Part shown: positions 10,014 to 58,485 of the stretch, one piece after another
Numbering within the stretch: the first letter of the stretch is position 1
Layout: the number at the start of each line of letters is the position of its first letter
Origin: Eikenella sp.
GTDB taxonomy: Bacteria; Pseudomonadota; Gammaproteobacteria; Burkholderiales; Neisseriaceae
Assembly (NCBI GenBank): GCA_030528345.1
Contig: JAUMZB010000004.1
Location: forward strand, 1-64,000
Direction of reading: 5' to 3'
DNA length: 64,000 nucleotides
Notes under the pieces: model-generated
Seen by the model: the letters and a program-made list of their open reading frames with translations, nothing else
Told to the model about the DNA's origin: nothing
The model's database searches: none
Made by a program: the position numbers and the translations under genes

Positions 10014-10901
10014 TCAAGTAGCCTGCCCTTCATCGGCCGGACAATGCGGTGCCCCGGCGGGGTGTTTGTAGCGGTTGTAGGCAAACAGGTATTGCTCCGG
10101 GAAACGGCGCACCCAGGCCTCCACATTGCGGTTGATGATTTCGGCATCGTGGTGTTTGTCGCCGTTGAGGCTGCCCTGCAAAGGCTCGATGTAGAGGGCG
10201 AAACCTTCGCTGTGCGGCAGGCGGCGGCCGCAGAAAAACAGGGTACGCACATTTTTTACCTGCGCCAGCTTGGCCGCCAGGGTCATGGTGTAGGCGTAGC
10301 GGCCGAAAAACGGCACCCATACGCCGTCACCGTGTTCGTCGGGCACATGGTCGGGCAGCACAATGGTGGCCTCGCCTTGGCGCAGGGCCTGGATAATCTG
10401 TTTCACGCCCTGCCTATTGGTGGGCGCGGTGCGGCCTTTGTCGCGCACCCGGCCGGCCTGCATCACGGCATCCAGCGCTTTGATTTTGGGCGGTTTGTAC
10501 ATGGCGGTCAGCGGAAAAGGCAGGCGGTGGCTGAGGTAGCGGCCGGCCAAATCGTAACTGCCCAAATGCGGGGTGATCAGCAGCAGGCCCTCGCCGGCAT
10601 CGAGGGCGGCCTGCACATGTTCCCAGCCGTGTACTTCGCGAAACAGGGCGGCAATGTCGGCGGGCGGGCGGAAGAAGGCAACGGGCAACTCCAGCACACC
10701 GCGGGCGGTTTCCCGAAAAACCGATTGGACCATGGCCTTATCTGCTATAATCCCGGCCGCTTGCAGATGGCGGCGCACCCGCCGCCGGCCGGCCGGCGAC
10801 AGCCAGTAAAACAGGCGGCCGGCCATGCTGCCCAAGATGTGCAGCACGCGCAGGGGCAGCATGGAAAGAAAACGGCACAATAAAAAAATCAGGGTTTGCA
10901 T
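10014..10901 (-). CDS. lpxL: Lipid A biosynthesis acyltransferase (LpxL/HtrB family)
   Basis: This inner-membrane enzyme adds a secondary acyl chain to lipid A in lipooligosaccharide synthesis. The family's catalytic HX4D motif is visible as HLGSYD, followed by the FPLTAMYKPPKIKALD segment and the later VLPDHVP motif. The ATG at 10901 gives 295 aa starting with a hydrophobic anchor (MQTLIFLLCRFLS). It is preferred because a TACAAT -10 box at 10931-10936 would leave almost no leader for the ATG at 10919. The last codons (QAT, stop) come from a DUS variant. Whether it is LpxL or LpxM (MsbB) cannot be decided from sequence alone. Confidence 0.85.
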   Translation of the reverse strand: MQTLIFLLCRFLSMLPLRVLHILGSMAGRLFYWLSPAGRRRVRRHLQAAGIIADKAMVQSVFRETARGVLELPVAFFRPPADIAALFREVHGWEHVQAALDAGEGLLLITPHLGSYDLAGRYLSHRLPFPLTAMYKPPKIKALDAVMQAGRVRDKGRTAPTNRQGVKQIIQALRQGEATIVLPDHVPDEHGDGVWVPFFGRYAYTMTLAAKLAQVKNVRTLFFCGRRLPHSEGFALYIEPLQGSLNGDKHHDAEIINRNVEAWVRRFPEQYLFAYNRYKHPAGAPHCPADEGQAT

Positions 10902-10930
10902 CACGAGGCAGCCACTCATAAAGAGGCGCC

Positions 10931-10936
10931 ATTGTA
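10931..10936 (-). promoter_or_regulatory. lpxL -10 box
   Basis: TACAAT on the minus strand lies 30 bases before the ATG at 10901, the same spacing seen for several other genes here. Confidence 0.5.
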
Positions 10937-10963
10937 ATGGAAATTTCCCCCTACCCGACAGGG

Positions 10964-11108
10964 TGAGACCTTTGCAAAACCTCCATCTGCGGCGCATTTC
11001 TGCGTTGTGCGCTGCTCACTCACTTGCCTATCTATCTGATATGTCTGCGTTCGCTGCGCTGCTACGCCTTGAACTGCATCCACATCTGGAGGTTTTGCAA
11101 AGGTCTCA
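10964..11108. mobile_element. MITE-like element, family A, copy 1 (complete)
   Basis: This 145-bp non-coding element has near-perfect terminal inverted repeats: the first 22 bases (TGAGACCTTTGCAAAACCTC and onward) are the reverse complement of the last 22. It encodes no transposase. Related copies lie at 41697, about 51190 and 58389. Its last base is the first A of a DUS. The ends resemble those I recall for IS5-type elements of Neisseria, so it may be moved by such a transposase (inference). Confidence 0.75.
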
Positions 11109-11143
11109 GGCTACCTGAAACCGTACGGCTTTTCAGGTAGCCT
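11108..11143. terminator. DUS inverted repeat next to the MITE-like element
   Basis: Two DUS copies form a 13-bp stem with a 10-base loop between the MITE-like element and metK. No T run is evident. Confidence 0.5.
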
Positions 11144-11218
11144 CATCCACGCCGTCCTGCCCCGTTTACCGGCCCGAACAGCCGGCCATAATTGATGTTG
11201 ATCAGCGAAAGTCATGCC

Positions 11219-12388
11219 ATGAGCGAATATCTGTTTACTTCCGAATCGGTTTCCGAAGGCCATCCCGACAAAGTGGCCGACCAGATTTCCGATGCCATTC
11301 TCGACGCCATCCTCAGCCAAGACCCCGCCGCGCGCGTGGCCGCCGAAACCCTGGTCAACACCGGCCTGTGCGTGCTGGCCGGCGAAGTCACCACCCGGGC
11401 GCACGTCAACTATATTCAGGTCGCCCGCGACACCATCCGCCGCATCGGCTACAACGCCTCCGAGCTGGGTTTCGACGCCGACGGCTGCGCGGTGATGGTG
11501 TGCTACGACGAGCAGTCGCCCGACATCGCCCAAGGCGTGAACGAAGGCGAAGGTTTGGATTTGGACATGGGCGCCGGCGACCAAGGCCTGATGTTCGGCT
11601 ATGCCTGCGACGAAACCCCCACCCTGATGCCGTTTGCCATTTATTACGCCCACCGCCTGATGCAGCGCCAAAGCGAAGTGCGCAAAGACGGCCGCCTGCC
11701 CTGGCTGCGCCCCGACGCCAAAGCCCAGCTCACCTGCGTTTACGATGCCGACACCGGCAAAGTAAAACGCATCGACACCGTGGTGCTCTCTACCCAACAC
11801 CATCCCGACATCGGCCATGCGGAATTGTGCGCAGCGGTGATGGAACACATCATCCGCCCGGTGCTGCCCGCCGATATGCTCACCGCAGACACCAAATACC
11901 TGATCAACCCCACCGGCCGCTTCGTCATCGGCGGCCCGCAGGGCGACTGCGGCCTCACCGGCCGCAAAATCATCGTCGATACCTACGGCGGCGCGGCGCC
12001 GCACGGCGGCGGCGCCTTCTCCGGCAAAGACCCCACCAAAGTAGACCGCTCCGCCGCCTACGCCTGCCGCTATGTGGCCAAAAACATCGTGGCCGCCGGC
12101 CTGGCCGACCAATGCCAAATCCAGCTTTCCTACGCCATCGGCATCGCCGAACCCACCTCGATCGCCATCGACACCTTCGGCACCGGCAAGCTGGACGAAG
12201 CGGCGCTGATTGCCCTGGTGCGCCGGCATTTCGACCTGCGCCCCAAAGGCATTATCCAAATGCTCGACCTGCAACGGCCGATTTACAGCAAAACCGCCGC
12301 CTACGGCCACTTCGGCCGCGAAGAGCCGGAATTCACTTGGGAACGCACCGACAAAGCCGCCGCCCTGAAAGCCGCCGCCGGCCTGTGA
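11219..12388 (+). CDS. metK: S-adenosylmethionine synthase
   Basis: MetK makes S-adenosylmethionine from methionine and ATP in the cytoplasm. The 389-aa protein is full length and shows the three-domain family pattern: [17 protein letters not shown] near the start (catalytic His), the [12 protein letters not shown] motif (about residues 117-128), and the Gly-rich [19 protein letters not shown] loop (about 262-280). The start at 11219 (MSEYLF) is the family start; an upstream in-frame ATG at 11192 adds nine unrelated residues. No SAM riboswitch is visible in the 75 bases upstream. Confidence 0.96.
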
Positions 12389-41696: not shown

Positions 41697-41857
41697 TGGA
41701 GCCTTTGTAACCCCCCGGATGCGGATGCAGTCCGAGGCGCGGCAGCGCAGCGAGCGAAGACATATCACATAGACAGGCAAGCGAGCGAGCCGTACCCCTA
41801 GGGCATAAGCACACAACGCAGAAATGCGCCGCAGATGGTTTTTTTGCAAAGGTCTCA
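41697..41857. mobile_element. MITE-like element, family A, copy 2
   Basis: This copy lies in the opposite orientation to the 10964 element and aligns with its reverse complement along most of its length (shared stretches such as GACATATCA, AGGCAAG, CGCAGAAATGCGCCGCAGAT). The right end (TTTGCAAAGGTCTCA) is intact and the left end is degraded. Its last base is again the first A of a DUS. It fills the gap between upp and tsaB. Confidence 0.7.
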
Positions 41858-41887
41858 GGCTACCTGAAACCCTTCCCCCTTCCCGCC

Positions 41888-51111: not shown

Positions 51112-51189
51112 CCAAGCAACCGGCTCTCTTTGCACATCGCAATATGCCCATGCCGACTAACAGACCAGCAAAACCGAAACCTTCGCCCC

Positions 51190-51244
51190 CTGCGGGCACA
51201 TTTCTGCGTTATGCGCCGCAGATGGGGGTTTTGCAAAGGTCTCA
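51190..51244. mobile_element. MITE-like element, family A, partial copy 3
   Basis: Only one end is clear: ACATTTCTGCGTTATGCGCC, GCAGATGG and TTTTGCAAAGGTCTCA match the 10964 element. The left part (from about 51120) is too diverged to define. It lies between grxD and the glutathione S-transferase gene, about 40 bases before the latter. Confidence 0.5.
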
Positions 51245-58180: not shown

Positions 58181-58388
58181 ACCGCCCGCATCCCGGTACC
58201 GGCAACCGACTCATGCAGGATCAGCATAGGCTCCGAGTCTGTAAAACCACCTCCTGCATCTGCCGCCGGTTACAAGTTCAGGCTACCTGAAAGCCCGCCC
58301 GACACACAGCAGAGCGCTTCATTCAGCAGATAAACACCCCGTCATCCGATATGCGGCCTTATCACCGGAAGACGTCCCCACAGGACAA

Positions 58389-58485
58389 ACATATCACGCG
58401 ACAGGCACAAGAACGGGCAGCGCCCATAGGGCATAAACGCACCAGGCAGAAATGCGCCGCAGATGGTTTTCGGGCAAAGGTCGCA
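58389..58485. mobile_element. MITE-like element, family A, partial copy 4
   Basis: The sequence from ACATATCACGCGACAGGC through TAGGGCATAA, GCAGAAATGCGCCGCAGAT and GGTTTTCGGGCAAAGGTC aligns with the right two thirds of the 41697 copy. The right terminus carries several substitutions and the left terminus cannot be defined. Confidence 0.6.

Follow-up and report, generated by a model that had tools for sequence, protein, structure and literature searches.

Among the described systems closest to the repeats analysed here is the ATR of Neisseria meningitidis, a type II miniature inverted-repeat transposable element (MITE) present in 19 copies, for which the insertion sequence (IS) ISNme1 has been proposed as parent (accessible part of PMC4596501). 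BrickBuilt and MITE464/PgRS of Porphyromonas gingivalis have ends of a related type (GAGACC.TTGCA and similar) that are shared, or nearly so, with IS5-family elements, and their accessible descriptions give them internal tandem repeats; the BrickBuilt duplications are reported in the same part of PMC4596501 to differ in length and sequence. The Correia element (CREE/NEMIS) is also a neisserial MITE, 100–155 bp long and with many copies, for which the accessible part of PMC3898611 gives 26-bp ends and a TA duplication. A short intergenic element of enterobacteria, ERIC/IRU, is listed among the MITEs in the part of PMC10969869 available.

The link between the Eikenella repeats described here and an IS of the ISNme1 kind parallels that of ATR, a likeness drawn from the description of ATR and from IS ends alone. 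Their 15-bp ends are identical to those printed for ISNme1, a member of the IS5 family, in the accessible part of PMC4596501. Unlike ISNme1, the repeats encode no transposase, and they share no interior with the IS that we find in a congener (genome G001) and in another genus (g10); these IS combine ISNme1-type ends, 5-bp duplications and an IS5-type transposase, their comparison with ISNme1 being one of printed ends alone. The copies read here show none of the internal tandem repeats of BrickBuilt and MITE464/PgRS. In contrast to the Correia element, the family has ends of 15–22 bp, and membership of the Correia family was rejected because a 5-bp duplication is found instead of TA. ERIC/IRU differs in hosts and in sequence and is likened by description alone. 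No paper joining Eikenella with 'miniature inverted' was found in the literature searched, and the one match joining Kingella with that term was an Acinetobacter paper. The family is new but belongs to a known kind, and its target is unusual. We conclude that the repeats are very probably non-autonomous IS5-family MITEs moved in trans by an ISNme1-type transposase, with a 5-bp target duplication and a preference for AGGCT/AGCCT-like pentamers that would bring most of them to the heads of DNA uptake sequences (DUS).

The element and its family

The initial annotation of the window (the whole stretch of 64,000 nucleotides that was analysed) described a 145-bp copy with 22-bp inverted ends at 10964–11108. 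This copy is real: positions 10964–10985 are the exact reverse complement of 11087–11108, and the arms run on to 29 nt at 90%. Alignment of the flanks showed that the mobile unit is GAGACC...GGTCTC, lying between 5-bp direct repeats; the repeat is thus where it was said to be, but the outer T and A counted as part of it belong to the 5-bp target duplication. The terminus TGAGACCTTTGCAAAA occurs four times in the window, every time exactly although up to three mismatches were allowed, compared with 0.49 expected from shuffles. The features of the site are as follows.

10965–11107, plus strand: complete MITE, block-less core of 143 bp (GAGACC...GGTCTC), from its arms and the family HMM
10965–10985, plus strand: left terminal inverted repeat, initial 15 bases identical to IS5-family ends
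11087–11107, minus strand: right terminal inverted repeat
10960–10964, no strand: left target duplication AGGGT, one mismatch against the right copy
11108–11112, no strand: right target duplication AGGCT
11108–11119, plus strand: whole DUS AGGCTACCTGAA adjoining the element, its bases 1–5 being the target duplication
11132–11143, minus strand: second, inverted DUS of the pair

The left duplication AGGGT is a decayed form of AGGCT. A lysophospholipid acyltransferase gene (NF006487) lies on one side of the element and metK (TIGR01034; from 11219 on) on the other, and an intact inverted DUS pair begins with the right duplication of the element. A promoter and terminator scan of 10850–11250 gave nothing within the element. 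The acyltransferase reading frame can be extended upstream into the MITE (10902–10997, minus strand), which could mislead annotation of the start codon. The earlier statement that the copies encode no protein agrees with the length of the core, which at 143–186 bp is too short for a transposase and holds no such ORF; the element is therefore not itself an IS.

A profile HMM of the family, searched against the window, recovers all four places named in the initial annotation, with matches at 10965–11107 (plus strand, E 7.5e-44), 41701–41856 (minus, E 4e-41), 58372–58484 (minus, partial, E 2.2e-18) and 51211–51243 (minus, E 7.7e-07), the last with a second arm at 51187–51216 (plus, E 5e-4); 50 shuffled windows gave 0 matches at E ≤ 0.001. 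The further features are these.

41701–41856, minus strand: MITE copy that carries block 1 but lacks block 2, its far end decayed, from the HMM and the block scoring
41857–41868, plus strand: DUS directly abutting that copy
51176–51243, minus strand: short deletion or fold-back derivative of ~68 bp, limits partly inferred
58372–58484, minus strand: incomplete and decayed copy of the longer MITE form, from the HMM

The copy at 41.7 kb has an extra block of 17 bp in comparison with the focal copy. At 51.2 kb the near end GGTCTC is exact and the far end GAAACCTTCG, read by eye, is decayed; the place holds, but instead of a diverged or partial copy with the limits first given, this is probably a complete short derivative covering 51176–51243.

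The expectation of many copies genome-wide was borne out by BLAST against the 2.13-Mb draft to which the window belongs (G000, 105 contigs), which gave 53 matches for the 145-bp copy and 45 when the longer form was the query, both counts including end-only self matches. The draft has at least 52 copies of the family, truncated ones included, and further half copies lie at its contig ends. With up to two mismatches the terminus is found 104 times, against 3 for the reversed control, and a 15-bp terminal consensus was obtained across 46 copies. Inverted repeats at the termini, target duplications of constant length and the large number of copies mark these repeats as a family of MITEs. By a rough longest-ORF rule, 25 of the 36 copies examined lie between ORFs and 10 of the 36 inside one. 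Presence on plasmids or phages was considered and discarded, as the 186-bp copy L014 used as query had no match at E 1e-5 in either the plasmid or the phage collection. That the repeats might be an artefact of assembly or annotation has a negligible probability in our view: the draft is in 105 contigs, some of which end inside elements, but copies with unique flanks and duplications are found within contigs, and there are 14 copies in a genome that is a single contig (G003).

Two size forms are seen, one of 184–186 bp and one of 143–145 bp without two blocks of about 17 and 24 bp. Scored by a fuzzy match in 52 sequences of G000, truncated ones included, both blocks are present in 33, block 1 only in 4, block 2 only in 4 and neither in 11; the calls are used for G000 only, since the fuzzy block-1 pattern also marked six copies of genus g4 which, at 142–146 bp, have no room for the block. 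All four combinations occur (L001, L005–L007, L010, L011, L015, L019 and L021 among others), and copies without and with blocks can have nearly the same core (L001 and L008). Parsimony requires six changes for each block on a core tree that is weakly resolved, with few resolved forks. This distribution suggests exchange between copies or repeated loss.

Another multicopy IS of the draft, with ends TGTWTAGTCCCGCC / TGTATAGTCCCAGAC, is almost always found where contigs end, its E1 end being found on 21 contigs (loci L077–L090 and L288–L296). Of the 21 E1 flanks, eleven close with CTAG followed by one or two bases and four with GGCTACC or GGTAGC, sequences also seen in the DUS; this pattern is reminiscent of the target rule of IS481. 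Six ends of this IS lie inside MITEs (E1 in contigs C2, C4, C30 and C63, E2 in C32 and C47), four of them at CTAGG of block 1. The landing of this IS in MITEs, at contig ends, thus explains some of the assembly breaks. A different IS5-type element (NF033580), apparently frame-broken and with ends ATTGCGTCGTCA / TGACGACAAT, occupies L075:1143–1973 (contig C75) and is nested in a MITE at CTAG. The MITEs therefore also serve as landing sites for other IS.

The hairpin fold

The focal copy folds as one long imperfect hairpin, with energy z-scores of − 9.8 and − 10.8 on the two strands, and a 184-nt copy reaches z − 5.5. ERIC, too, is a full-length imperfect palindrome, and one may ask whether the repeats are kept by selection as RNA or hairpin elements, the rod over the whole repeat serving to process or stabilise transcripts as ERIC or Correia can, with transposition as history only. 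We regard this as unlikely. In an alignment of 37 copies, drawn from G000, G003, g4 and two loci of g10, a rod of 56 pairs obtained by averaging single folds is paired in 93.0% of cells against 31–46% in slid controls, and double changes occur in 210 rod cells against 72 in shuffles, values that speak for an RNA role as the z-scores do; the test favours the rod, since this was derived from the very sequences scored, and the shuffles take no account of relatedness. Counted by pairs, however, those with a double change number 23, little above the 18.7 of the shuffles, of which 2 in 500 get as high, and pair types are no more numerous than in shuffles (266 of 500). From this alignment RNAalifold predicts 25 pairs in all, mainly those of the arms, both strands fold, and the G-U excess on one strand is weak (145 G-U against 74 A-C cells). 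No match at the gathering score was found in Rfam for the five loci searched, and an origin of that type was accordingly set aside.

Moreover, covariation would also be expected in a long palindrome that is maintained because the transposase recognises both ends or because repair is templated by the hairpin. Within G000 the two arms of one copy share the same deviation 17 times, compared with 6.8 in shuffles (maximum 15 in 2000), but in 79 cases a deviation affects a single arm. This covariation may stem from hairpin-templated correction, from selection that keeps both ends good, from the history of subfamilies or from a function as RNA.

Ends shared with IS5-family elements

We searched 83 genomes of the bacterial family for exact copies of the 15-mer GAGACCTTTGCAAAA that ends the MITEs of the window's own genus. 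Paired copies about 1.2 kb apart are, among the matches listed, found for example in congener G001, which has five intact IS of 1219–1228 bp with GAGACCTTTGCAAAA at both ends, four of the five between perfect 5-bp duplications; MITE ends and congener IS ends are thus the same. The same 1.2-kb IS5-family element, with identical 15-bp ends, is present in four genomes of genus g10. Its transposase of 335 residues (366 from an upstream TTG) matches NF033581 (IS5 family, 5.4e-78), PF01609 and PF05598, and perfect 5-bp duplications flank 24 of 30 distinct IS copies in G001, G023, G045, G046 and G047. The 15-mer also occurs in a primer in the accessible part of PMC5070880. The impression recorded in the initial annotation that the ends resemble those of IS5-type elements in Neisseria is therefore correct, in that the accessible part of PMC4596501 prints the same ends for ISNme1 of N. 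meningitidis. The annotation had also called for an IS with matching termini, which exists in G001 and in the g10 genomes and was not found in the window's own draft; its proposal of mobilisation in trans is supported by this IS5-family element sharing both the 15-bp ends and the 5-bp duplications. As evidence against the proposal it had named fixation of the copies at identical sites together with the lack of any IS sharing the ends; such an IS was found. Mobilisation by an IS5 transposase is very likely.

Draft G000 yielded no transposase of the G001 type, its one match, at 31%, being a different IS. Nor does it hold an autonomous copy: the sole PF01609 match, in contig C75, belongs to the different IS nested in a MITE. 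The transposase is therefore assumed to have been lost or to lie outside the draft. No relative of it was found in G020, G013, G024 or G086, and in G003 and G087 there are broken transposases only. Partial relatives, with about 85% identity over 44%, were seen in two N. gonorrhoeae records (H1, NZ_CP119140.1; H3, NZ_CP119142.1), which at about 2.17 Mb in a plasmid collection look like misfiled chromosomes.

Ends and duplication length are the same in MITE and IS, as they would be in an ordinary internal-deletion derivative of the IS (a type I MITE). BLAST of MITE against IS, however, gave significant matches over 15–25 terminal bases and no clear similarity further in, and the same unrelated interior is common to several genera; a derivation of this kind is very improbable and we have rejected it. 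An 82-bp element in G047 is, in contrast to the MITE, of the internal-deletion kind. It is one of several short elements with GAGACCTTTGCAAAA ends and other interiors, namely L188 and L189 in G042, L187 in G047 and L096:2756–2872, with sizes of 172, 165, 82 and about 117 bp. It appears, then, that this GAGACCTTTGCAAAA-ended IS is common to several families of MITEs.

The ends of the MITEs differ by genus, and three types can be distinguished, GAGACCTTT, GAAACCTTT and GAAACCCC. MITEs of G003 end in GAAACCTTTGCAAAA, which is also found on two termini 2.4 kb apart that bracket the broken IS of this genome. A subset of the g4 MITEs has CCCC-type ends (GAAACCCCTGCAAAA). The g4 genome G087 has a 51%-identical transposase with one stop in frame, flanked by GAAACCCCTGCAAAA on one side and on the other by GAACCCCCTGCAAAA, with GAAACCCCTGCAAAA further out; there is no clear duplication around this IS, and its nearest second terminus is GAACCCCCTGCAAAA. 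Other g4 MITEs have GAAACCTTT ends, for which no matching IS was identified in g4. The resemblance of MITE ends to the ends of the local IS holds in three genera and, seen with one intact and two broken types of IS, appears to be good evidence for mobilisation in trans.

Target duplications and DNA uptake sequences

A search for target duplications, which the initial annotation had also suggested, gave 5-bp duplications. Among 49 two-ended copies of G000 the duplication is perfect in 29, has one mismatch in 13 and two in 7, each boundary being allowed a one-base shift with a penalty and the half or truncated copies (L012, L017, L055, L061–L063, L065, L069, L075, L203 and L206) being left out. 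It is perfect in 12 of 14 copies of G003 and in 12 of 16 of genus g4, where the rows L031 and L032 represent a single site, orthologous between two genomes, and L050, a repeat of L043, is left out. AGCCT/AGGCT accounts for 23 of the 29 perfect duplications in G000.

The 12-mer AGGCTACCTGAA, which we take to be eikDUS, occurs 45 times in the window, where 0.00 would be expected, and it starts with AGGCT. With one mismatch allowed, a DUS overlaps the insertion site of 21/29 copies with perfect duplications in G000, 11/12 in G003 and 9/12 in g4, or 31/49, 11/14 and 10/16, respectively, when all copies are counted. Insertion at the DUS head leaves one whole DUS adjoining the element. According to the accessible part of PMC3630211, eikDUS is found in E. 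corrodens and N. shayeganii and is the sole dialect with A at + 4; the main text does not print the 12-mer, but the uptake sequence of the window fits the description.

The pentamer alone goes some way towards the DUS. By a rough ORF rule, 42 AGGCT/AGCCT sites lie outside ORFs in the window and 21 of the 42 are exact DUS heads; the AGCCT-type duplications of G000 fall at an exact DUS head in 17 of 23 cases against this background of 50% (p 0.017), or, with one mismatch, in 19 of 23 against 24 of 42 (p 0.0095). Pentamer preference and intergenic position therefore explain much of the DUS effect, and the excess beyond the pentamer is moderate. A bias that is mainly one of survivorship and plain pentamer preference, in which copies are lost unless they lie in intergenic DUS pairs and terminators, is a serious alternative that we hold at somewhat less than even: besides the background and the moderate excess, the intergenic position of most copies examined and the diverse targets of the sampled IS copies fit it. 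Yet AGCCT/AGGCT is far more uniform among the MITE duplications than any target is in the sampled IS, and survivorship alone predicts no fixed register within the DUS. In g4, copies with CCCC-type ends have TTTCA/TGAAA, the DUS tail, in 4 of 5 perfect duplications, and those with GAAACCTTT ends have AGGCT/AGCCT in 5 of 7.

The IS copies use broader targets than the MITEs. Only 4 of 24 IS copies with perfect duplications overlap a DUS compared with 41 of 52 such MITE copies (Fisher p 4.5e-7, one row of the pair L031/L032 dropped), a comparison that is descriptive since the genomes and the DUS patterns differ. Sharing a transposase thus does not by itself explain the concentration of the MITEs on the DUS. 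One could picture a lineage of MITEs, spread over several genera of this bacterial family and specialised on the DUS in a fixed register, at the head for GA(G/A)ACCTTT ends and at the tail for CCCC-type ends, whose own duplication restores a working DUS. The element would then travel with an uptake signal, so that spread by natural transformation as well as transposition would be possible, its ends following whichever IS5 transposase the genus has. This picture is tentative, and we think it rather less probable than not. Among the matches listed, no title dealt with MITEs or transposons inserting at DNA uptake sequences.

The joined flanks of 14 sites in G000 were compared with congener G001. 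A DUS or DUS pair and no element is found in G001 at the counterparts of L002 and L014 (left flank of each) and L016 (right flank), one flank each, the base-exact junctions being lost to divergence. The two flanks of L016 match far-apart places in G001, and those of L022 places about 6 kb apart; a base-exact comparison failed at most of the 14 sites because the intergenic DNA does not align. The 30 loci of G001 examined gave no family HMM match better than E 0.58, and this genome has one decayed relic of the family. In G003 there are two pairs of identical copies at different sites, which indicates recent movement. The g4 genomes G020 and G024 have two copies at shared sites, which indicates inheritance.

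Returning to non-autonomous MITEs moved in trans, we envisage that the transposase comes, or once came, from a full-length ISNme1-type IS that has the same 15-bp ends; this enzyme would bind both MITE ends and move the element. Insertion would make the 5-bp duplication, with AGGCT/AGCCT-like pentamers preferred. As about half of the intergenic AGGCT/AGCCT sites of the window belong to a DUS, most copies would end at a DUS head and leave one intact DUS. We infer that pentamer preference together with survival between genes makes the DUS a landing site.

Uptake sequences and transposable elements, which are usually treated apart, are linked here. The resemblance between MITE ends and genus-specific IS ends would give a natural record of a non-autonomous element following its transposase. 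Should the DUS prove to be a favoured target, transposons could be marking, multiplying or silencing sites of uptake and be carried along with them in transformation.
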